From Thermoguttaceae bacterium (GTDB lineage Bacteria; Planctomycetota; Planctomycetia; Pirellulales; Thermoguttaceae), in NCBI GenBank assembly GCA_017407125.1, contig JAFQXE010000028.1, positions 62,001 to 126,000 on the forward strand: DNA of 64,000 bases. Reading direction: 5' to 3'. The translations under genes and the position numbers were made by a program. The notes under the pieces are model-generated. The model searched no databases. It had not been told where the DNA came from and saw nothing but the letters and a program-made list of their open reading frames with translations. Positions within the stretch are counted from its first letter, which is position 1. Each line of letters opens with the position of its first letter. This document shows, in pieces, positions 19,558 to 57,718 of the stretch.

Positions 19558-20110
19558 AAATCCCAAAATCGTATTACATATAAAACGAAAAAAGCGCTCA
19601 AAATCGTTAAATTCGGTACAAGCATTAAAAATAAGAAAAAAAATAATAACTTTTCTTAGCAATGCACATAGCCGATTTAAAAAAGTGTAGTACAATAGTT
19701 ATGAAGTTGAGAGCAGTAAGCTTTAAGCTTATAAAACAAGATGAAAACGGGAGAAAAGAGACTCGGAAAAATCTTAATCTCCCCAAGAAATTGGCAAAAA
19801 TTCGGAAAATTTTGAAAAATTTCTAAAATTTTGTGGTGCACTCACTTGACAAAATGTGAAAATTTAGCCATAATAGGCAATTGACGTATGAATAATCTGA
19901 AAAGAATATTCAAAAGTCAGAAAACAGTTAAGCGAGCATGCAATCGCAAGACTGGTAAAATCGGTCAGGTAAAGTTTCAATAAAATAAAATGAACAAGGT
20001 ACCTACCACAACAGGCGCTCACATAACAGGGTATTGAGAGCGTCGTAAAATGGCCCTTGCGCCAAGTTAAAAATTTTATTTTTGTTTTACGTTTTGGAGG
20101 AATGATCATT
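19558..20110 (+). promoter_or_regulatory. Near-consensus promoter and long 5' leader of the Cys-rich protein gene
   Basis: TTGACA at 19846-19851, a 17-base spacer and CATAAT at 19869-19874 form the best sigma-70 promoter in the window. Transcription would start near 19881, giving a leader of about 230 bases before the start codon. The region before the promoter (19560-19845) is very AT-rich with runs of A and T such as AAAATTTCTAAAATTTTG, resembling an UP element or curved DNA. No gene is seen in this stretch. Confidence 0.7.
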
Positions 20111-20878
20111 ATGAAACGTTTCGTAGTAGCCATGATTGCTTTGGCTTTGGTTTCCGTTAGCGCTATTTCTTTCGCTGCTGATTGCGCTCCGGCTTGCGCT
20201 CCCGCTGCCGCCGCGTGTGAACCGGCTCCGGCTCCGGCTTGTGATCCAGCTCCGGCTTGTGATCCGGCCCCGGCTTGCGCCCCCGCTTGCAAACCCTGCA
20301 AGAAACTGGGTCTCGGCTGCCTGAAGAAGATCCGTTGCTGCAAACCGGCTTGCGCTCCGGCTTGTGATCCGGCCCCGGCTTGTGAACCGGCTCCGGCTTG
20401 CGCTCCCGCTTGCGAACCCGCTTGCAAACCCTGCAAGAAGTTCAACTTCAAGCTCTTCCGTTGCTGCAAACCCTGCAAACCGGCTTGCGCTCCCGCTTGC
20501 GAACCGGCTCCGGCTTGTGATCCGGCCCCGGCTTGCGCTCCGGCTGAAGCCGCTTGCGAACCGGCTTGCGCTCCCGCTTGCAAACCCTGCAAGAAATTCA
20601 GCTTCAAGAAGCTCGGTTGCTTCAAGAAGGCTTGCAAACCGGCTTGCGCTCCCGCTTGCGCTCCGGCTCCGGCTTGTGAACCGGCCCCGGCTTGCGATCC
20701 AGCTCCGGCTTGCGCTCCCGCTTGCAAACCCTGCAAGAAACTCTGCTGCAAGAAGGCTTGCAAACCCGCTTGCGTAAAGAAGTTCAACTTCAAGAAGGCC
20801 TGCAAACCGGCTTGCGCTCCCGCCTGCGCTCCGGCTTGCGAACCGGCTCCGGCTTGCGCTCCCGCTGCCGCTTGCTAA
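20111..20878 (+). CDS. Secreted Cys/Pro/Ala-rich repeat protein (255 aa)
   Basis: The start is chosen as ATG 20111 because GGAGG ends 10 bases before it; ATG 20102 is only 1 base away. Residues 1-22 form a signal peptide ending SFAAD. The rest is low-complexity: repeats of CAPACEPAPACDPAPA type alternate with basic stretches such as CKPCKKFNFK and CLKKIRCC. Roughly every third or fourth residue is Cys. Chemical analyses of planctomycete envelopes have reported Cys- and Pro-rich, disulfide-linked protein walls, so a structural envelope role is attractive, as is metal binding; neither is proven. A very strong promoter and a strong terminator suggest abundant expression. No homologue is named from memory. 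Confidence 0.85.
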   Translation: MKRFVVAMIALALVSVSAISFAADCAPACAPAAAACEPAPAPACDPAPACDPAPACAPACKPCKKLGLGCLKKIRCCKPACAPACDPAPACEPAPACAPACEPACKPCKKFNFKLFRCCKPCKPACAPACEPAPACDPAPACAPAEAACEPACAPACKPCKKFSFKKLGCFKKACKPACAPACAPAPACEPAPACDPAPACAPACKPCKKLCCKKACKPACVKKFNFKKACKPACAPACAPACEPAPACAPAAAC

Positions 20879-27224: not shown

Positions 27225-27794
27225 ATGAATAATCTCGGATGTTATAGACCGCGACGTATTCCGCATAGGGATTTTGGCGATTGTATCCAATCTATAACCT
27301 ATCGTCTGGCAGATGCAATATCTCCGGGCGAAATGCAACGTATCGTTAATATTTCTCAACTCCAACCAACAGAACAACAAGAGATCTATAAAAGACGTCT
27401 TATAGAGGATTGGCTTCATGCCAACCGACACGGCATTTGCATATTATCTAATCCAGTTGCTGCAAGAATCGTAATTGATTCATGGTATTACTATAACGGA
27501 AAACAATACGATTTATTCGATTGGGTTGTTATGCGCAATCACGTTCACCTTATCATCCGCGTTTATGAGAATGTACAACTGGGCAGAATAATTGGTCATT
27601 GGAAGAGTTATACCGGAAGATTGATTTCAAATTATTTTTCAATTCAGCCGCCGATTTGGGAAAAAGGATATTGGGACAGAATAATACGTGACGACAATCA
27701 TTATCATAAATGCAGAGCGTATATAATCAATAATCCAATTAAAGCAGGTCTTGATAATTGGCCATATGTTTCAACAAAATGGCATAAAGAATAA
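27225..27794 (+). CDS. REP-associated tyrosine transposase (RAYT), Y1/IS200-like (189 aa)
   Basis: A single-domain HUH/Y1 endonuclease related to IS200/IS605 TnpA. Seen: the HUH motif in VVMRNHVHLIIRV near residue 105, then GRIIGHWKSYTGRLI, and near the C-terminus WEKGYWDRIIRDDNHY and YIINNPIKAGL, which are hallmark RAYT segments. RAYTs excise and move short REP hairpins in trans and are domesticated rather than self-mobile. Double-hairpin elements flank this gene in opposite orientations (left 27102; right 27832 and 27936), as expected for a RAYT-REP locus. The gene is AT-richer than its neighbours. The reading frame is intact. Confidence 0.85.
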   Translation: MNNLGCYRPRRIPHRDFGDCIQSITYRLADAISPGEMQRIVNISQLQPTEQQEIYKRRLIEDWLHANRHGICILSNPVAARIVIDSWYYYNGKQYDLFDWVVMRNHVHLIIRVYENVQLGRIIGHWKSYTGRLISNYFSIQPPIWEKGYWDRIIRDDNHYHKCRAYIINNPIKAGLDNWPYVSTKWHKE

Positions 27795-49141: not shown

Positions 49142-50527
49142 TCATTCTGGAATGCCAATCAGGTCGTATTCCTCTTGGTCAACGATATTGACGTTAAGGA
49201 ACTGACCTTCTTTGAGCGGGCGTTTCTTCGGACCTTCCGTATCTTCTTGAGGATAGGTAACATAGACAACCCCGTCAACGTCTGGAGCGTCCATCCAGGT
49301 GCGACCGATAAACACGCCCGGCGCGTCTTCCAGCTCGTAGTCCAGAACGCATTCGACCACGTTCCCGATGATTTCCTCGTTGTTTTGGACGTTGATTTCC
49401 GCCTGAACGTCCATCAGCTCCTGAGAGCGTTCATGAATCGTCTTTTCGTCCACCTGATCCGGCAGCTGCGCCGCCTCGGTTCCCAATTCCGGCGAAAATT
49501 CAAACACGCCGACGTGATTAAACCTCTGCTGTTTGAGGAACTTGACCAAGCTCTTATGCGCCGACTTCGTTTCGCCGGGGAATCCGGAAATGAACGTCGT
49601 TCTCAAAACCAGACCGTCGATTTTACGGCGCATTTTATCCAGCAGGGCGCGGGTTTTGTCGCCTGAAACGCCGCGGTGCATCAGCCGAAGAACCTCGTTG
49701 TCGATATGCTGCAAGGGCATGTCGATATACGGCAAGACGCGCTGCGCCCCGGCAATCGTGTCGATTAAATAATCGTCTACCGCCAGCGGATAGAGATACA
49801 TGAGCCGAATCCAGTTCAGATTCTCGATTTTATCCAACTGCTGCAGCAGCTGCGCCAGCTGCGGTTTTCCGTACAAGTCCGCTCCGTAATAAGACGTGTC
49901 CTGAGCCAGCAAAACCAGCTCCTTAACGCCGGAATCCGCCAGACGTTTCGCTTCCTCAACGCACTGTTCGATCGGTTTGCTGATATACTGCCCGCGAATT
50001 TTCGGAATGAGACAAAACGAACACGTCCGATTGCAGCCCTCGGCGATTTTCATAAACGCGACGTGGTCAGGCGTCAAGGCGTGGCGCGTCTCGTCCGCCG
50101 GCAGCGTGTCCGGCTGATAGTTCTCGTAGAACATCGGCAGCTTCATCTGAGACGCATTTTTCGGGTCAGCGTCCAAACGTTCCAACGCTTCCAGAATCGC
50201 CTCGCGGGAAAAAACGTCCAGAATGATATCGACGTCTTTGCAGGTTTCCAGCACAACCTCTTTATCCGTCTGAACGAGGCAGCCAGCAACAATAACGTGT
50301 TTCGCCTGACGGTTGCGTTTGCGAGTCAGCGCCTCGTCAATCGTATCGTACGATTCCTTTCGCGACGACGCCAGAAACCCGCACGTGTTGACAATAATCA
50401 CGTCCGCCTCGTCGAGGTCGTGAGTAATCGGATACCCCGCCTGTTCCAGCTTCCCGAGCATCTGTTCGCTGTCGACCAGGTTCTTGGCGCAGCCCAACGA
50501 TATAATTGTACAGCAATTCTTAAGCAT
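49142..50527 (-). CDS. rimO: Ribosomal protein S12 methylthiotransferase (461 aa)
   Basis: A radical-SAM enzyme that adds a methylthio group to the conserved Asp of ribosomal protein S12. The N-terminal UPF0004 cluster site is present (SLGCAKNLVDSE and VNTCGF, a third Cys in VAGCLVQ), the radical-SAM CNRTCSFC at ~150, and a C-terminal TRAM domain ending GPKKRPLKEGQFLNV. GCAKN with the VDSE context separates RimO from MiaB. No Shine-Dalgarno site is seen. Confidence 0.93.
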   Translation of the reverse strand: MLKNCCTIISLGCAKNLVDSEQMLGKLEQAGYPITHDLDEADVIIVNTCGFLASSRKESYDTIDEALTRKRNRQAKHVIVAGCLVQTDKEVVLETCKDVDIILDVFSREAILEALERLDADPKNASQMKLPMFYENYQPDTLPADETRHALTPDHVAFMKIAEGCNRTCSFCLIPKIRGQYISKPIEQCVEEAKRLADSGVKELVLLAQDTSYYGADLYGKPQLAQLLQQLDKIENLNWIRLMYLYPLAVDDYLIDTIAGAQRVLPYIDMPLQHIDNEVLRLMHRGVSGDKTRALLDKMRRKIDGLVLRTTFISGFPGETKSAHKSLVKFLKQQRFNHVGVFEFSPELGTEAAQLPDQVDEKTIHERSQELMDVQAEINVQNNEEIIGNVVECVLDYELEDAPGVFIGRTWMDAPDVDGVVYVTYPQEDTEGPKKRPLKEGQFLNVNIVDQEEYDLIGIPE

Positions 50528-50954
50528 AATATTCCGTCTTGTTAGAGGTCAGGGGAGAACGTCCGCATTCCGCACAGACGCCCTCCACGCTTAATATTAT
50601 ACTAGAATCTCAAATAAATGGAAGGAGCAGGGCGGCGGGGAATTAGCAATTGTCAATTACGCAAAGCGCCGCCTTGTCTAGTGAAAAATCCGTTGAGTCC
50701 GGTTCTAGCCCGGTCTTCGCCCGCTGAAGGTTCCCCAATGCGGTTGTTACGTCTGCAAGTCAAATATCTACATTTGATTAGGCAAAAACGAATTTTAGAG
50801 AAATTCCCCCAAAATTTGATTTTTCCATAATTACCCCCTTGCAAAAAAACAAAATCCTTGAATAATTGATATTCAAAGAGGCTAAAAGCATTCAGAAATA
50901 TATTTTTGAAGCGTCAATCGTTATTATTCAAACTTGCAATTGGGAGCGTATTCT
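50528..50954. other. Spacer with heptamer remnant and AT-rich leader of the motor-GTPase operon
   Basis: Positions 50640-50665 hold GCAATTG/TCAATTA heptamers followed by ACGCAAAGCG. From 50800 to 50940 the DNA is AT-rich; TTGCAA at 50839-50844 and TAATTG at 50863-50868 (18-base spacing) are a weak promoter guess for the following operon. No tRNA or gene was found. Confidence 0.4.
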
Positions 50955-51542
50955 ATGCGAAAATTGTTATTGACATTTATCCTGATAGTTTTAGGATTGC
51001 TAATATTCGCTGCATCACAATCGTCATTTGCAGCTGATACAAACATCAGCGAAAGCGAAGCTGTTTCCGAAACCGAAACCGACGCCGACGCTGAAACAGA
51101 CGCGTCTAAAAAGGAAAGCTCTGTTCACGGTCTGTTCAAGGGATATGTTTACGCAGTTTCTCAAAACCCCTGGTTTGATCTCGCAATTTTGATAACGGGA
51201 GCTATTTTGTTTATTGTGCAAGCGTTCTTTCTTGTCAGTTATCTTTCCAGAAAATACTGGGCAACTCAAAACGCCACGATCATTTCAGAACTTTTCTTGG
51301 CGCTTTGTGAAGTCTTTCCGCTGCTTGGTTTGTTGGGAACCGTCCTGGGATTGCTTGATACATTTAGCGCGCTGCCAAACGGCAATATGGCTGAAATGTC
51401 AAATGTAATTAAGGATTTGCTTCCAAAATTTGCTCCTGCATTAACCACAACGGTTTCTGGAATGCTGGCGATGATTTTTAATCTGATGTTGTGCGTTTTC
51501 TCTTGGTTTTGCATCCAGTTTATCAGTCAGGAGGAAAAATAA
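50955..51542 (+). CDS. MotA/TolQ/ExbB-like membrane protein (195 aa)
   Basis: Start is ATG 50955, with GGGAG 9 bases before it. A cleavable-looking signal (1-27, ending SFAAD) is followed by an acidic linker with TETDADAETDA (residues 28-56) and three helices (~73-95, ~115-140, ~160-190). The last two match the ExbB/TolQ pore helices: GLLGTVLGLLDTF at 125-137 and APALTTTVSGMLAMIFN at 160-176. It lacks the large cytoplasmic domain of classic ExbB, so it is a short member. Together with the next gene it should form a proton-conducting stator. Its stop shares one base with the next start. Confidence 0.85.
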   Translation: MRKLLLTFILIVLGLLIFAASQSSFAADTNISESEAVSETETDADAETDASKKESSVHGLFKGYVYAVSQNPWFDLAILITGAILFIVQAFFLVSYLSRKYWATQNATIISELFLALCEVFPLLGLLGTVLGLLDTFSALPNGNMAEMSNVIKDLLPKFAPALTTTVSGMLAMIFNLMLCVFSWFCIQFISQEEK

Positions 51543-52054
51543 TGAACGTTTCCAAAGTAATGGCGCGATTTCTGCCGTTGATGGACTTGTCCATTTTGTT
51601 GCTTGGCATGTTTTTGCTCGTTCTCAGCATTGCAAAGTTTAACGAATACAAGTCAGAAAGAATAGTAGTATTTAATGGAGTAATTAAAGACGACAGCAAA
51701 CAATCCTACGACGCCAAGAAGGTCTTGAAACAAACGCTCACATTGGAATTTCTCCCTATCTATGGGTGCTGTAATTCAAGTAATGGGTGTCTTGTAGGGC
51801 ATTGCTACTCCCTGGACGCCCAATTAAATCCGGGAAAAGAAATTCGCATGGATACCGATGCGGACTATAAGGAATTACTCCAGAAGTCCGGATTCAAGGA
51901 AGATAATATGCCAATTGTCTGTTTAATCACAATAAGCGACGGATGGCTTGCCTCTTGGGATTCAGAGACAGTCCGCAAGTTGGGAGAGACTTGGAATTGC
52001 GGTCGTATTTATCGGATATACAATTTTGCAGATTTTCCATTTAAAGAAGAGTAA
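51542..52054 (+). CDS. ExbD/TolR-like protein (170 aa)
   Basis: Start ATG 51542 overlaps the previous stop (TAATG), with GGAGG at 51529-51533. It has a single N-terminal helix (residues ~11-30) of the form LPLMDLSILLLGMFLLVL. The Asp at 15 corresponds to the conserved membrane Asp that carries protons in ExbD/TolR/MotB. The remaining ~140 residues are extracytoplasmic, with a Cys-rich loop (CCNSSNGCLVGHC), an unusual feature for ExbD. Family assignment rests on the helix and the partner gene, since the periplasmic domain is diverged. Confidence 0.75.
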   Translation: MNVSKVMARFLPLMDLSILLLGMFLLVLSIAKFNEYKSERIVVFNGVIKDDSKQSYDAKKVLKQTLTLEFLPIYGCCNSSNGCLVGHCYSLDAQLNPGKEIRMDTDADYKELLQKSGFKEDNMPIVCLITISDGWLASWDSETVRKLGETWNCGRIYRIYNFADFPFKEE

Positions 52055-52074
52055 TCAGGAAAAAGGATTCAACA

Positions 52075-52755
52075 ATGAATATTATCATTCTCGGGTTCTT
52101 TGGCGGCTTTTTATGGTCGTGCTTTCGAGTTGCCGCCGCTATTGTCGTTGGGGTAACAGTCGGGATTGCCGTTGCTGCAATTGCTTCTGCAGCTGGTTTA
52201 GCCCCTGTGGCGGGCGCTGCATTAGGAATAGCAGCCGCGGTGGGGGCGGGGGCGGCAACATACGCTATAATTGGACCATATCAAGAGACTACGTCTTCAT
52301 CAAAGGCTATAAAAGAAAATGAAAAGCCTGCGATTAATCCTGTAAAACCTAAAATAGAGATAGTGTCTAAAGAGGTAGTCATACCAATTCGATTTAAGGA
52401 GCCTGACGTCCAATTAGAAGGTGAGAGATGTCCATCTAAACGCTATTATTGCGAAATTAAAGAAGACAATGACTGGAAATCAATCCAGGGGAATTCGCCA
52501 AAAGACATGCTGGATCAGGTTCGCAGCCATTTTACTAAAATAATTGAACAGCGCCGCATTTCAGACCAAAAAGTTGTAGACAACAAAAAAACGAAAACGT
52601 TTTTTACAATTGACGTCTATAAGAAACCATTTCCTGGCGACAACATTCTTTCAGAATTGTGGGAACTGAAGAAGGAGTGTTTTAACGACAACGACAATTA
52701 CAACGCATACGATAAGGAATATTCAGAATCTGAAAGCGAAGGAGACAAAAAATAA
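52075..52755 (+). CDS. Gly/Ala-rich membrane-anchored protein (226 aa)
   Basis: Residues ~4-68 are a very hydrophobic Gly/Ala/Val-rich stretch (VVGVTVGIAVAAIASAAGLA) that could form one or two packed helices. The C-terminal 150 residues are soluble and charged (KRYYCEIKEDNDWKSIQG), with acidic tail ESESEGDKK. No family is recognised. It lies 20 bases behind the ExbD-like gene and its stop overlaps the next start by one base, so it is part of the operon. Confidence 0.7.
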   Translation: MNIIILGFFGGFLWSCFRVAAAIVVGVTVGIAVAAIASAAGLAPVAGAALGIAAAVGAGAATYAIIGPYQETTSSSKAIKENEKPAINPVKPKIEIVSKEVVIPIRFKEPDVQLEGERCPSKRYYCEIKEDNDWKSIQGNSPKDMLDQVRSHFTKIIEQRRISDQKVVDNKKTKTFFTIDVYKKPFPGDNILSELWELKKECFNDNDNYNAYDKEYSESESEGDKK

Positions 52756-53396
52756 TGAGTTTTACAGCTTTTTCATTCATTTCCCCAATGCCGCTTGCGA
52801 CACTGTTTGATTTATTTAAATGGTATGATAAATTATTTAGCCCGCAGGTTTCCATAGCGTGTACTTTAATCGTATGCCTTGTTGTTATTTGGGTTACCGG
52901 CGCGCTGTTTGACAACTGGTTTAAAACCAAAAAACTCCTCTTGGCAATAATTAAGACGGCGATCATTGGCGTCATTCTCTTTAGCGTCTTGAAAGCTACC
53001 GGAAAAGGCGACGGAGACGATGGAAAAACGCCGCCACCGCCGCCACCGCCGCCACGTCCAGTAGCCCCGGCCCCTGTTAAAAGAGATCCTGTTGATATAG
53101 CCATTACTTATTCAAATAATGGCGTTACCATTGATTATAAAGGAGCTGTAGCTACTTTACCCAATCCTACATCGCAAAAGATTTTTAATGAACTCAAAAA
53201 AAATTTGGAAGATAATCAATGTTTCGGAACGATAACCATTAAGCTCGAAAAGGATATTAAAGACCTGGAGAGCGTTAATGGAAACATTGATCGTTTGAAA
53301 GAGTTGTTGGATCAAGATAACGAGGCGCAGAATAATGCTACAAAGATACACTACAACGATTCAGACGCTAACATATCAACAGGAGTTAAAAAATGA
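52755..53396 (+). CDS. Membrane protein with proline-rich linker (213 aa)
   Basis: Two helices (residues ~34-54 and ~63-80) are followed by PPPPPPPPRPVAPAPVKR at about 93-110 and an alpha/beta C-terminal domain (DIAITYSNNGVTIDYKG, then ITIKLEKD). A helix, Pro-rich spacer and small domain recalls TonB/ExbD-type periplasmic reach, but the helix carries no Asp. It starts at TAATG with the previous stop, with GGAG 10 bases before, and overlaps the next gene by 4 bases (ATGA). Confidence 0.7.
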   Translation: MSFTAFSFISPMPLATLFDLFKWYDKLFSPQVSIACTLIVCLVVIWVTGALFDNWFKTKKLLLAIIKTAIIGVILFSVLKATGKGDGDDGKTPPPPPPPPRPVAPAPVKRDPVDIAITYSNNGVTIDYKGAVATLPNPTSQKIFNELKKNLEDNQCFGTITIKLEKDIKDLESVNGNIDRLKELLDQDNEAQNNATKIHYNDSDANISTGVKK

Positions 53397-55351
53397 GCAG
53401 CAAACAGAATAAACCGTTGACAATTGGACTTTGCAGTGAACCGGGAACAGGTAAAACTCAGTATGTATATCAGTTTTTATCTGACGTTCTTGCTCTGAAC
53501 GCTCAATCTGGCGCGAACAATGAATTGGACGGCGATGCGAAGCAATACTACCAAAAGCTGTCCGCCGAAATCGAAAAAGGCGCGTTGTCCCCAACGCGTG
53601 ACGAGAAATCGTTTACGGTTTCCCTGCCGGAAAAAACGGAAACGTCTCAGGATGTCAATTTGAAACAGTATAATTTTTACGATGAGTCAGGCGACAGCTT
53701 TGTCAATTATGTTGAAGACGATGAAAAGTCTGACGATATTTTTAACCAGCTCATCAATAACTCTGACGTTCTGATTTATACCATTAATCCCGCCAGTCCA
53801 GAGTTCGTTTCCGAAACGTATTTTCAAACGCTTCAGGAGCATATTCATCAGTTGCTCAAAACCATTGCTAAAAAGAGAGGAAATCGATATTTACCGGTAT
53901 ACTTTCTCTTCACGCATCAAAACGATTTGGATGCCGCGTCAGAGGATGACAAAGCGGTTGTTCAAAAGCAAATGGATTCTTTGATGGCGTTTGTTAAACA
54001 GGAATACCAGAATCGCTATAACAGGACGTTCCCTAGAGAACTGGCGTCTCCCAAAACAGCTTTTGGCGCTTTTGATTTAAAGCGCCCGGGTTCTGCTTTA
54101 CAAGTCATGGAAGAAACGCTGAACCTGCACGCCTGTCTTGAAAAATTCGACAAGAAGTTTCGCGCTCGATCAAGAATCGTTCTTATCCCATTTATAATTT
54201 TTCTGTTTGGATTTGCTCTTGCATTCCTTTGCTGGTTTTTGCCCAAACTTTTAGGGCATAGTGGAATGATAGGCGGAGAATCCTTGACCGAGCTTAAACA
54301 ACGAATCAGCGATATCGAAGAACAATTGCTGGATTTAAACCGGAATCAGAAAGAATTTAACGATACAATCAGCAGCATTAACTCAAATATTGACAACATT
54401 GAGAACAGACTCCGCATTCTTGAAAAAGGTCCCAGTAGTTCATATGTTCCTGGAACCCCATTACCAGAACCTGTAATAGATGAATTTTTGCTGAAGGGGG
54501 GGATGCTTAATTCTTTTGCAGTCGCGGAAGGAATAGTTAAAAACCGTTCACAAATCCAAAGTATCATTCAAAGGCTTGAAAAGCTCGAAAGAGGTACAGA
54601 AACCAATCCTCTGAACTCGGTTATTGATGGAGAAGATAAATACGGAAAATTTAAAAAGATTACATACAATGGTTTGACGTTTGCATTTCGGTATTGTGAG
54701 TCCTGTAAAGCTAATGGATTTCCTATGGGGAGAGAGGGAATTAACGTTAAACTGCACCCTGGTTTTTGGATTCTGGAATCTGAAGTAACTAATGAAATGT
54801 GGGAGACGATTGAAGGTAATCGTAAAAATGATAACGGAAAAAGTTTTCCTGTAGGTCAGGTTAATTGGTACGAGTGTGAAAGCTTTTGTCTCGACCTGTC
54901 TGAAAAAATAAATAAAGCCTGTAATACCAACTTCAAATTCCAGTTGCCAACAGAAGCCCAGTGGGAATATGCCTGCCGTGCCGGAAATACTCTTAAAGTA
55001 CCATCTGATGATAAGGTTATAGAGATAATATCAGATCTGGCATGGTATAATAAAAACAGCAATAATACCGTACATGCCGTTAAGACAAAAAATCCCAATG
55101 CCTGGGGTATATACGATATGTACGGGAATGTTGATGAGATAGTTCGAGACGGTTGGAATAGTGAATTAGTCAGCTCAAATAACCCGATTGGTACAAATGA
55201 TAAAGATTGCGTGTATCGTGGAGGATGTTATAGCGACTCATGCTGGCGTGTTAACTGGCATTTCCGCAAAGCTCTTAATAAAGGCGATTCCTTTAAGGAA
55301 TGTGGATTCCGCATTTGCTTTGAAGACGAGGAGCCTGAAAGCAAGAAATAA
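53393..55351 (+). CDS. P-loop GTPase-like / transmembrane / coiled-coil / FGE-sulfatase-like fusion (652 aa)
   Basis: AGGAG precedes the start. The N-terminal ~250 residues have a P-loop SEPGTGKTQ (15-23), a DxxG switch in YDESGD (D97-G100) and a THQND (174-178) in the position of the NKxD guanine motif, so a diverged GTPase is likely. A membrane helix lies at ~261-286, then a coiled coil (~298-345, LKQRISDIEEQLLDL). From ~417 to 650 is an FGE-sulfatase/C-type-lectin fold: FWILESEVTNEMWE, FQLPTEAQWEYACRAGN, WGIYDMYGNVDE and VYRGGCYSDSCW. The two Cys of true formylglycine-generating enzymes (three and eight residues after GG[S]) are not in place, so it is probably a binding domain on the outside of the inner membrane. 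Confidence 0.82.
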   Translation: MSSKQNKPLTIGLCSEPGTGKTQYVYQFLSDVLALNAQSGANNELDGDAKQYYQKLSAEIEKGALSPTRDEKSFTVSLPEKTETSQDVNLKQYNFYDESGDSFVNYVEDDEKSDDIFNQLINNSDVLIYTINPASPEFVSETYFQTLQEHIHQLLKTIAKKRGNRYLPVYFLFTHQNDLDAASEDDKAVVQKQMDSLMAFVKQEYQNRYNRTFPRELASPKTAFGAFDLKRPGSALQVMEETLNLHACLEKFDKKFRARSRIVLIPFIIFLFGFALAFLCWFLPKLLGHSGMIGGESLTELKQRISDIEEQLLDLNRNQKEFNDTISSINSNIDNIENRLRILEKGPSSSYVPGTPLPEPVIDEFLLKGGMLNSFAVAEGIVKNRSQIQSIIQRLEKLERGTETNPLNSVIDGEDKYGKFKKITYNGLTFAFRYCESCKANGFPMGREGINVKLHPGFWILESEVTNEMWETIEGNRKNDNGKSFPVGQVNWYECESFCLDLSEKINKACNTNFKFQLPTEAQWEYACRAGNTLKVPSDDKVIEIISDLAWYNKNSNNTVHAVKTKNPNAWGIYDMYGNVDEIVRDGWNSELVSSNNPIGTNDKDCVYRGGCYSDSCWRVNWHFRKALNKGDSFKECGFRICFEDEEPESKK

Positions 55352-55503
55352 GCATTTTTGTTAGTTCAAAGAAATCTTTCCGTTCTCCTCTCTGGCTCCG
55401 TCGACGCGAAAGGGGAGAACGGGAGAATTCGCTATTCCGCCCACAAAGCCGATCTTGCGATTTACTGTCAAATTCTCAATCAGCGGTCAGAAACAGTCAA
55501 TAA

Positions 55504-55773
55504 TCATGTCAATAGGTTCATAATGAACTTCCCCAGATAGCACAACGCGCCAATAAGGAATGCTAATACTAACAGAATTCCATAAGCTCTCTCATTACGA
55601 GTGTTTTCTGCCTGAGTAGAGGGACGTTTTATAAAATCTGGTCCATTGCTCTCGACGGGAGTTTTGTCGTTTTTTTCTTCATCCGTCATTGTCGCTTCAG
55701 CAAGCTTGTAAACGAAGGGCAAAACAAGAAAAAAAGCGACAATTCCAATAAAAGCCAAAAGGAATCTGAACAT
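55504..55773 (-). CDS. Small two-helix membrane protein (89 aa)
   Basis: A helix at residues ~4-24, an acidic/polar loop with TMTDEEKNDKTPVES, and a second helix at ~65-87. GGGGGAAG lies 5-12 bases before the ATG. It is a paralogue of the neighbouring 55825-56091 locus: FLVLPFVYKLAEATMTDEEK aligns with FLVFLVCKFVESSMIEKEKK. Convergent with the GTPase operon and possibly functionally tied to it. No family is recognised. Confidence 0.65.
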   Translation of the reverse strand: MFRFLLAFIGIVAFFLVLPFVYKLAEATMTDEEKNDKTPVESNGPDFIKRPSTQAENTRNERAYGILLVLAFLIGALCYLGKFIMNLLT

Positions 55774-55824
55774 TATGCTTCCCCCTATTTAAAACTGAAT
55801 GCAATACGAAGCGTCTTTCATTAA

Positions 55825-56091
55825 TTACCAAATTAAGGAGACAATAAAACTAATCAGCTGAAAAATTACATATCCGATGACAAATAATACGAACAAACAC
55901 TGATAAACGCTCTGCTCAAAATCATAATCCACTTGTGTGGCTGTACGCCAGACGCCCCATTCGTCAGGGTATTCGACCAGGGTTTGGTCTTTTTTTTCTT
56001 TCTCTATCATTGAGGATTCCACAAACTTACAAACGAGAAATACGAGAAAAAGGGAAAAACAAAAAAGAAAAATGCCAATGATTTTCTACAT
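55825..56091 (-). pseudogene. Paralogous small membrane-protein gene with TAG as second codon
   Basis: A strong AAGGAGG at 56099-56105 is followed 7 bases later by ATG (56091-56089) and at once by TAG (56088-56086). The same frame then runs open for 87 codons (KIIGIFLFCFSLFLVF, then KFVESSMIEKEKK and a second helix near the end) and aligns with the 89-aa protein beside it. So a nonsense codon has closed the gene right after the start, unless translation begins at GTG 56022 or ATG 56010, which would drop the first helix, or the codon is read through. Another reading frame (56007-56216) across it is a shadow. Confidence 0.7.
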
Positions 56092-56364
56092 GATATTGCC
56101 TCCTTAGCAAAATTAAAAAACAGTCTGTCCAACGCTGAAAAAGCCTTTTCAGCTTCTGAACAAGCCATCCAGACTATTTCAGGATTATGACTGCAAAAAG
56201 AATCCGAATTAATCAAAATCCAAATGGACGATTAATCCGTTTTCGCTTCCTTGCTGTTGAAATTTTTAATAATTATACTTAATCAATATTTGTTTGTCAA
56301 GCAACTATGAAAGAATTTGAAAAAATTTTTATAAGAATTAAAGGGAAATACCGTTTTATCAATT
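56092..56364. other. AT-rich spacer (273 bp)
   Basis: Contains the AAGGAGG ribosome binding site of the broken gene at its left end. Runs of A/T with GAAAAAATTTTTATAAGAATT near 56317 could serve as promoter DNA for the minus strand. No gene was seen. Confidence 0.35.
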
Positions 56365-57708
56365 TCAAAACCGTTCCTGTTTCCAGAGTCCGGTGGAGAT
56401 GTAACCCGCCATGAGGAAAACAGTTATAAACGATGCCAGCGGGGAAGCGAATCCGATTCCGTAGAGCGTCGCGCCCGCCATGCGGCTGACGAACCAGGCA
56501 AACGGGATTCGAGCGGCGAACGTTGGAATGACGTTCATCATCATGGACGTGCGGGTATGTCCGCTGCCGTTGAGAAAGCCGTTGCTGGAAAAGACGAATC
56601 CCAAAACCAGTATCTCAAAGCAGAACGAGCGCATGTACTGCGACCCCGCCGCGATAACGTCCGGGTCTCTGGTAAAGATGGCAAACGCCGATTCCGGGAA
56701 GTACCTCATCCAGACGAAAAGCCCGATGCCAATCAGGGTCGAGTAGAAAACGCTCAGCTTGAAAAACTCTAAGGCGCGGTCGAACTTCTTCGCCCCGATG
56801 TTTTGCGCTGTAATGGGCGCCATCGCCATACCCATCGACATGGCGGGCAGAAGAATGATTCCGTTCAGACGTCCGCAGACGCCGTACCCGGCAGAGGCGT
56901 TAAGCCCGAATTCGTTCACAATTGCGAAAATAATCATGAACGACAAGTCGATTAAAATGGACTGAATTGCAATCGGCATTCCAATTGCCAGCAGTTTCGC
57001 AACATGCGATTTATCGAGTTTCAGATTGTTCCAATGGAACTTAAATATCGTCGGATGATAATGCAAATATCCCAGCGTCAAGACAGCGCCGATCGCCTGA
57101 GACGCAACGGTGGAAATCGCCGCCCCGGTTGCGTCCAGATGGAAGACGCCGATTAAAACCACGTCGCCGATAATATTGCAAATGCACGCCGCGGCGACGC
57201 AAATCATGGGGTAAACCGAGTTCCCGACGCCTCGCAAAATCCCGGACGGGACGTTGTATCCGATCGTAAAAATCAGCCCGGCGGAACAGATATAGATATA
57301 CGTCAGCGCGCCGTTATACGCTTCATCCGGCGTATTGATAAACTTCAGCAGTAACGGCGCCAGCATGAACGCCAGCCCAGTCATAAAAAGCGTTAAGAGA
57401 AAAAACAGCGTCAAAGAAGAGCCGATAAACCGCTGCAGGGACTCGAAATCTTTCTCGCCGAAGTATTTCCCGATAATAACCGTCATACCGGTTGACAAGC
57501 CAATTACGAAGAGCATAAGCAGCATCATCGCCTGACCGCCGTTGGCGACGGCGGCGGTCGACTGTGCGCCTGTGCAAAACTGACCGATTACCAGCAAATC
57601 CACCGCCATGTACATTGCCTGCAAAAGATTGGCAATGAAAAACGGCAGAGCGAAGGTAAACAGTATCCTGGTAGGCGATCCGACAGTTAAATCGCGTTGT
57701 CCATCCAT
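56365..57708 (-). CDS. MATE family multidrug/sodium efflux transporter (447 aa)
   Basis: Twelve hydrophobic helices with the MATE repeat features: DLTVGSPTRILFTFALPF at the N-terminus, MAVDLLVIGQF in helix 1-2, and in the second half FGLNASAGYGVCGRLNG. It exchanges Na+ or H+ for cationic drugs or metabolites across the inner membrane. Start placed at ATG 57708, as TTG 57717 lacks support. An 8-base inverted repeat spans the start codon. The second gene half shows normal MATE signatures, so it is intact. Confidence 0.9.
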   Translation of the reverse strand: MDGQRDLTVGSPTRILFTFALPFFIANLLQAMYMAVDLLVIGQFCTGAQSTAAVANGGQAMMLLMLFVIGLSTGMTVIIGKYFGEKDFESLQRFIGSSLTLFFLLTLFMTGLAFMLAPLLLKFINTPDEAYNGALTYIYICSAGLIFTIGYNVPSGILRGVGNSVYPMICVAAACICNIIGDVVLIGVFHLDATGAAISTVASQAIGAVLTLGYLHYHPTIFKFHWNNLKLDKSHVAKLLAIGMPIAIQSILIDLSFMIIFAIVNEFGLNASAGYGVCGRLNGIILLPAMSMGMAMAPITAQNIGAKKFDRALEFFKLSVFYSTLIGIGLFVWMRYFPESAFAIFTRDPDVIAAGSQYMRSFCFEILVLGFVFSSNGFLNGSGHTRTSMMMNVIPTFAARIPFAWFVSRMAGATLYGIGFASPLASFITVFLMAGYISTGLWKQERF

Positions 57709-57718
57709 ATTGGACAAC
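57696..57718 (-). promoter_or_regulatory. Inverted repeat across the MATE start codon
   Basis: GTTGTCCA and TGGACAAC, perfect arms of 8 bases with a 7-base centre that contains the ATG (57708-57706). It could be an operator or an RNA hairpin that hides the start codon. Confidence 0.45.

Follow-up and report, generated by a model that had tools for sequence, protein, structure and literature searches.

A five-gene operon at a variable locus

The stretch of DNA analyzed here, 64,000 nucleotides from a Thermoguttaceae bacterium (hereafter the window), holds five tightly packed genes encoding, in order, an ExbB/TolQ-like protein, an ExbD/TolR-like protein, two further membrane proteins and a large protein with a DO-GTPase-like domain (Table 1). 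The junctions are a TAATG overlap, a 20-base gap, a second TAATG overlap and an ATGA overlap, and because they overlap or nearly overlap, the five open reading frames (ORFs) clearly form a single operon. All of them were recovered at the positions and with the junctions given in an earlier reading of the bare DNA letters (the original prediction). The operon is real, recurrent and accessory, and it unites a putative proton motor of the 5:2 type with a membrane DO-GTPase.

As the original prediction had also claimed, the operon is AT-richer than its surroundings, with a GC content of 41.2% against 52.9 ± 3.3% in 21 flanking genes and a GC content at third codon positions of 0.39–0.48 against 0.62. 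No promoter or terminator signal at the operon exceeded those of shuffled sequences. The source assembly comprises 4.4 Mb in 57 contigs and is 87% complete; relatives of the operon proteins, where named, come from Thermoguttaceae and other planctomycetes.

Table 1. Positions of the operon genes and adjoining features in the window.
Feature	Position	Strand	Description
Gene 1	50955..51542	+	Short ExbB/TolQ/MotA-type proton-channel protein, 195 aa (amino acids)
Gene 2	51542..52054	+	ExbD/TolR-like protein, 170 aa
Gene 3	52075..52755	+	Membrane-anchored protein, predicted periplasmic domain with PFPG motif, 226 aa
Gene 4	52755..53396	+	Two-/three-helix membrane anchor, Gly/Pro-rich spacer, possibly TolR-like periplasmic domain, 213 aa
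Gene 5	53393..55351	+	DO-GTPase-like domain, membrane helix, coiled coil, FGE/C-type-lectin-fold domain
Accessory insert	50665..56364		Between rimO and MATE gene; holds the operon and a small minus-strand membrane ORF
rimO	49142-50527		Flank of insert
MATE gene	56365-57717		Flank of insert
Small membrane ORF	55504-55773	minus	Inside insert

The putative motor pair and two further membrane proteins

Judged by its sequence, gene 1 is a member of the MotA/TolQ/ExbB family. It scores 37.5 bits against the Pfam model MotA_ExbB (PF01618; cut-off 22.9, E 2.3e-9), which bears out the earlier assignment from its pore motifs, and the profile of its family matches solved ExbB/TolQ chains in the PDB (best E 1.3e-5). 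The protein carries an N-terminal hydrophobic segment and an acidic spacer, and the motifs GLLGTVLG and FAPALTTTVSG place Thr129 and Thr166 at pore-threonine positions, where both are invariant in 10/10 gene 1 members.

The gene 2 product is ExbD/TolR-like by its modelled fold, its position and its membrane Asp, and not by sequence model. In a sequence search the ExbD model PF02472 did not match gene 2; among its relatives, one was matched at E 0.29 and a Gemmatales relative at E 0.0032. Arg9, Leu13, Asp15 and Gly22 are invariant in an alignment of 15 sequences, the Asp thus being kept in 15/15. The AlphaFold2 model, with a predicted local distance difference test (pLDDT) score of 75, consists of a membrane helix (residues 3–45) followed by a β-β-β-α-β-α-β periplasmic domain, and TolR/ExbD chains took ranks 1–4 of 999 aligned solved chains with moderate Z scores of 5.9–6.5 over 70–84 residues (TolR Z 6.5, ExbD Z 6.0). 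Foldseek likewise gave ExbD its highest probability (0.77), and VIA-align ranked no family over ExbD/TolR among those in its list. The proposal of an ExbD/TolR-like protein with a membrane Asp is hence upheld for the fold and the residue, although not by the ExbD sequence model, and genes 1 and 2 both fall in the expected MotA/TolQ and ExbD/TolR classes.

Genes 3 and 4 are each predicted to encode a multi-helix membrane anchor with a small periplasmic domain. Relatives of gene 3 are present in three other genomes (G011, G012, and G060), and the gene 4 family occurs at 10/10 loci. Their soluble ends are related by profile match (hhalign probability 77%). With low confidence, gene 4 likely holds a TolR-like domain: its weak model (pLDDT 64.5, β-β-β-α-β-α) has TolR at Foldseek rank 1 (probability 1.00), and a Z score of 7.1 to TolR is tied with unrelated RNase-H-like folds, at a model pLDDT of about 65. 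Both proteins lack an Asp at the position of that of gene 2, and a profile comparison of either with canonical ExbD was negative.

A DO-GTPase with an exchangeable C-terminal part

Gene 5 encodes a DO-GTPase-like domain (residues 1–260), a membrane helix (about 264–286), a coiled coil (295–345) and an FGE/C-type-lectin fold (about 410–645). Its relatives support placing the family among the DO-GTPases, since two of them pass the curated cut-off of 27 bits (48 bits in G012, 32 bits in G060), in support of the surmise that the GTPase is of the type reported by Aravind and co-workers. Nine gene 5 members all share the G-K-T residues, Asp97 and Gly100, and the GTPase profile matches the solved GTPases Nug1 (E 2e-5) and LRRK2 Roc (E 0.008).

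The FGE part matches Pfam FGE-sulfatase at E 2.3e-25. Its nearest solved relative is Treponema TvpA (2y3c, E 1.3e-18), followed by PorK/GldK (PDB PorK E 4e-7; NCBIfam GldK/PorK E 1.7e-11) and PvdO. In catalytic FGE, the copper-binding Cys pair lies in a C-terminal GGS-x-x-C-x4-C motif; the C-x4-C pair of gene 5, within RGGCYSDSC, is offset by three residues from that motif. As the source genome has 37 FGE-domain matches, the acquisition of such a domain by gene 5 is unsurprising. A role of the domain as target of a diversity-generating retroelement was considered and rejected, since no template repeat was found: within its own genome (87% complete), the 472-base 3' end of gene 5 gave short conserved-motif matches only and no near copy.

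The fusion of GTPase and FGE domain, central to the original prediction, is present in the window copy and in no other (1/10 members), and is therefore not what defines the family; what recurs is a GTPase with a variable C-terminal part. Behind the membrane helix, five other members share a helical/beta domain and G011 has a Cys-rich spacer, while gene 5 of G012 ends without extension and a separate membrane/coiled-coil gene stands in its place. Such a variable end would be expected if the motor and switch stay constant while the outer parts change. Homology between the C-terminal parts of Gemmatales and Thermoguttaceae gene 5 proteins was also considered and dismissed, as the alignment is confined to a few terminal residues and is not significant.

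Recurrence across planctomycete genomes

Recurrence was surveyed in 119 genomes of the family with an ExbB profile at a threshold of 1e-10. Gene 1 as a single-sequence query over genome contigs had given no match; an alignment-based query did find relatives. The profile matched 16/119 genomes at E 3.5e-29 or better, with none between this value and the threshold. The eight best, the window among them (with G011, G012, G027, G031, G060, G075, and G112), are of Thermoguttaceae type and all show the order ExbB-ExbD-(gene 3)-gene 4-GTPase, so that the operon occurs in 8/119 family genomes and in 0/3 relatives of the same genus. Two genomes of another family, including Planctomycetes bacterium CA13 (G384), carry this set and an additional gene, which brings the total for this gene order to 10 genomes in two families. 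Because CA13 is not a metagenome bin, a binning artefact is argued against; its near-complete genome moreover offers testable genes. For the fifth gene of the CA13-type loci (MAEKVLYGHSSG..), a GAP1-N2-like identity was a guess that found no Pfam support.

The GTPase points the same way: its profile gave seven matches at E <= 2.2e-79 in the 119 genomes, all at ExbB loci (Fisher p 1.4e-10), and ExbB-like and GTPase genes thus recur together in other genomes. As the same order recurs in 10 genomes, the arrangement is not due to chance. Sequence distances among members are correlated between the genes as well (r 0.92–0.97), but three close pairs inflate this value, and it carries little weight. 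A weaker GTPase tier (1e-24 to 1e-28) corresponds to a stand-alone gene in genus g9 (L212-L215), where these relatives are about 720–770 amino acids long and some genomes have ExbB at another locus.

The eight remaining ExbB matches (group B) have no adjoining GTPase. At five group B loci from rumen/gut planctomycetes (L054, L055, L058, L059, and L060), the ExbB-ExbD set lies by a large LEPR-XLL-type surface protein and small membrane proteins. In two more families the trio stands alone within the short stretches read. A related set was found in Gemmatales (L104, L106, L109, L111, L119, L120, L122, and L130), where ExbB, ExbD and a gene 4-like gene are followed by a gene 5. It lies mostly behind lepB and a YbgC-type thioesterase gene, with lepA before them in L111 and L130, where the contig reaches that far. 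In two cases this gene 5 is a GTPase (profile E 9e-8 and 3e-3; DO-GTPase2 25 and 19 bits, sub-threshold); the remaining ones examined lack a P-loop, as if it had decayed, and keep the membrane helix together with an extended periplasmic portion. It therefore appears that planctomycetes have long had an ExbB-ExbD-gene 4 core, of whose partners the DO-GTPase is the most interesting.

Insertion site and genomic neighborhood

In a genome of the same genus (G002), the DNA on either operon flank is 87–88% identical to that of the window, and the positions corresponding to 50664 and 56365 are separated by about 165 bp; lacking the whole 5.7 kb insert, it represents an empty site. Together with the composition and the patchy distribution, this empty site in a sister species supports the suspected accessory module.

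In two other genomes of the genus, the insert is replaced by other genes. G003 (L186:3474-13137) has ZacC, ZacB and ZacA beside rimO (E 7e-255, 1e-104, and 9e-72), which we take to be the Azaca defence system, and also a type I restriction HsdR. At the same locus, G001 (L184:3042-5180) encodes a PrsW intramembrane protease with a fused GYF domain, together with a membrane protein; GYF proteins have been tied to planctomycete DO-GTPase systems (Kaur et al., 2020, PMC7159879). Upstream of the operon in CA13 (L065:936-7170), genes for a NACHT-like ATPase, a DUF2868 protein, a DUF3482 GTPase and a putative metallopeptidase lie on one strand, and in G027 a MoxR-type AAA gene precedes the operon. 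These neighbors suggest a role in conflict, albeit by circumstantial evidence. The same applies to the defence machine envisaged in the original prediction, where the circumstantial evidence is a hotspot that Azaca and type I restriction genes also occupy.

Further features were noted beside the operon and in the window. In G031 (L031:4359-4874), a dual-specificity/PTP-type phosphatase gene (best matches Tc-R-P and PTP-SAK) lies directly upstream of the ExbB gene. Window positions 20057-20878 encode a Cys- and Pro-rich protein of 273 amino acids made of repeated PACAPACEP/CKPCKK units, and a Y1_Tnp transposase gene (IS200-like/REP-associated) lies at 27225-27794.

Proposed mechanism and alternative explanations

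From the observed gene order, the families of genes 1 and 5, the fold class of gene 2, the recurrence and the insertion at a variable locus, we infer the assembly, GTP hydrolysis, gating and topology of a possible machine. A gene 1 pentamer and a gene 2 dimer would form an ExbB/ExbD-type 5:2 motor, with genes 3 and 4 providing additional periplasmic partners, the latter probably carrying a TolR-like domain. Gene 5 would act as a membrane-anchored DO-GTPase switch in the cytoplasm, its rod and exchangeable outer domain (in the window an FGE/C-type-lectin fold) reaching into the periplasm. An envelope ligand or disturbance would be bound on the outside, the state of the GTPase would gate the motor or be reset by it, and proton flow would then power an envelope response. 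We give about even chances to the operon being such an accessory, GTP-gated trans-envelope machine powered by the proton motive force. Its weakest part is the output: even granted the machine, anti-phage defence is somewhat less probable than another function. At roughly one chance in three, we consider a new class of immune or envelope-surveillance systems in which a DO-GTPase gates an ExbB/ExbD-type motor with exchangeable outer sensors, a "Zorya-like" principle that would have been reached independently, with a GTPase replacing the nuclease/helicase set.

Several observations weigh against this proposal. By hhalign, gene 2 matches canonical ExbD with a probability of only 2.4%, although the alignment does pair the Asp, and it is the modelled structure that would carry the ExbD match. 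The GTPase domain of the window copy is sub-threshold in Pfam (DO-GTPase1 E 1.2e-4, DO-GTPase2 E 1.4e-3; 21.9 bits vs 27), and the relative in G011 has lost the P-loop, so that GTP binding is not always kept. GTPase-less related trios (group B and the f47/f75 loci) indicate that the motor can work without the GTPase. Moreover, the link to defence comes mainly from one hotspot, and no known defence system directly flanks the other loci of the operon's own group (group A), for which few neighbors were scanned.

The main rival, a tentative but serious one to which we give somewhat under one chance in three, is a lineage-specific Tol-like machine for envelope maintenance or division. It would derive from TolQ-TolR, have gained new periplasmic partners and use the GTPase to couple the work of the motor to growth of the cell envelope; the window copy would be a diverged, horizontally moved version. 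The TolR fold matches of genes 2 and 4 fit this idea, as does the related Gemmatales set, whose constant position behind lepB and a YbgC-type thioesterase gene resembles the ybgC-tolQ-tolR order of Tol-Pal (for the ybgC-tol link, see PMC12204202) and whose gene 5 has mostly lost the P-loop yet retains its membrane helix and long periplasmic part. However, an operon that is rare and patchy, foreign in composition, absent from close relatives and placed at a variable locus would be unusual for a housekeeping function. The operon also contains no gene for a TolA-type transducer, TolB or Pal, and the SHLS motif that PMC12204202 reports from TolA/TonB helices was not seen on inspection of genes 3–5, whose hydrophobic segments contain no His.

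Further alternatives are far less probable. A TonB-like energizer for nutrient uptake across the outer membrane would agree with the ExbB/ExbD family and with the Pro-rich spacer behind the membrane helix of gene 4, which resembles TonB, but it is improbable given that the gene 4 domain looks TolR-like, that there is no receptor gene and that canonical ExbD genes are matched seven times elsewhere in the source genome; also, we know of no place for a GTPase in Ton systems. A similarly small chance, if marginally better, is left for a surface-motility or secretion motor akin to the GldL/GldM-GldK machinery of the type IX secretion system (T9SS), with the FGE fold as outer ring-like partner. The GldK/PorK matches of the FGE part speak for it, and in the T9SS, too, an FGE-fold protein accompanies a motor driven by protons (PMC12421860). 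Against it stand the restriction of this part to a single member in a genome rich in FGE domains, TvpA rather than PorK as nearest solved relative, and no further T9SS genes seen nearby. Least credible is a merely fortuitous adjacency of a motor operon and a GTPase-FGE gene: the separate loci of ExbB and a related GTPase in genus g9 would be in line with it, but it is contradicted by recurrence of one order in two families, by the overlapping frames, by GTPase matches that lie 7/7 at ExbB loci and by the correlated divergence.

If, as in the GTP-gated machine proposed above, the GTPase does gate the motor, this would be a new way of controlling such motors. Proton motors of the 5:2 type drive flagella, gliding, Ton and Tol systems and Zorya defence, and among the papers searched no link to a GTPase was found.

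Comparison with known systems

The operon is neither Zorya nor a canonical DO-GTPase/GAP1 system. With Zorya, named in the original prediction as a relative in logic, it shares a motor of the same superfamily accompanied by further genes and a placement in a defence hotspot. Membership in this system is unsupported: gene 1, with 195 amino acids, lacks the long ZorA tail, gene 2 has no match to an OmpA-like domain, and a PADLOC scan found no ZorC, ZorD or ZorE, with ZorA models reaching only E 1e-3. Searches of the five proteins against PADLOC and PHROGs yielded nothing convincing beyond a match to the FGE part.

DO-GTPases have been described with GAP1 as second constant part, and FGS domains were reported in planctomycetes for these DO-GTPase/GAP1 conflict systems (Kaur et al., 2020, PMC7159879), with which the operon has in common the GTPase family, membrane anchoring and swappable C-terminal domains. 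None of the five operon proteins matches GAP1. GAP1-N2 was found in 12/13 genomes tested but never at the operon (GAP1-N1 was not sought genome-wide), which argues for a different use of the DO-GTPase family. The source genome has three GAP1-N2 loci; on its contig C37, GAP1-N2 lies about 3 kb from a weak GTPase-profile match, apparently a canonical DO-GTPase system. ExbB, TolQ and MotA are absent from the main text of PMC7159879, and GTPases are conversely unmentioned in three papers on the motor superfamily, which covers Mot, Pom, Exb, Tol, Agl, Gld, and Zor (PMC12204202, PMC12505986, and PMC12905483). The operon is not described in the open-licence literature searched; an earlier description elsewhere is possible.

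Closest on the motor side are ExbB/ExbD and TolQ/TolR, both 5:2 proton motors, which share with the operon the pore threonines, the membrane Asp, the order of motor-A and motor-B genes and the periplasmic fold of gene 2. Differences are that gene 2 is missed by ExbD models and that the operon has no TonB or TolA but extra proteins with two to three helices and a GTPase. The GldLM/GldK set of type IX secretion also combines a proton motor with an FGE-fold partner, whereas the FGE part occurs here in one operon member only and no other T9SS parts were seen nearby. In bacteria of the PVC group, vWA force transducers are encoded with tolQ and paired tolR-like genes (PMC12204202); such sets resemble the operon in having a TolQ-like gene, more than one TolR-like gene and a membrane-tethered partner, which in the operon would be a GTPase lying in the cytoplasm, with its rod in the periplasm, instead of a vWA protein. 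The operon joins two hitherto separate literatures, that on DO-GTPase conflict systems and that on Exb/Tol motors.

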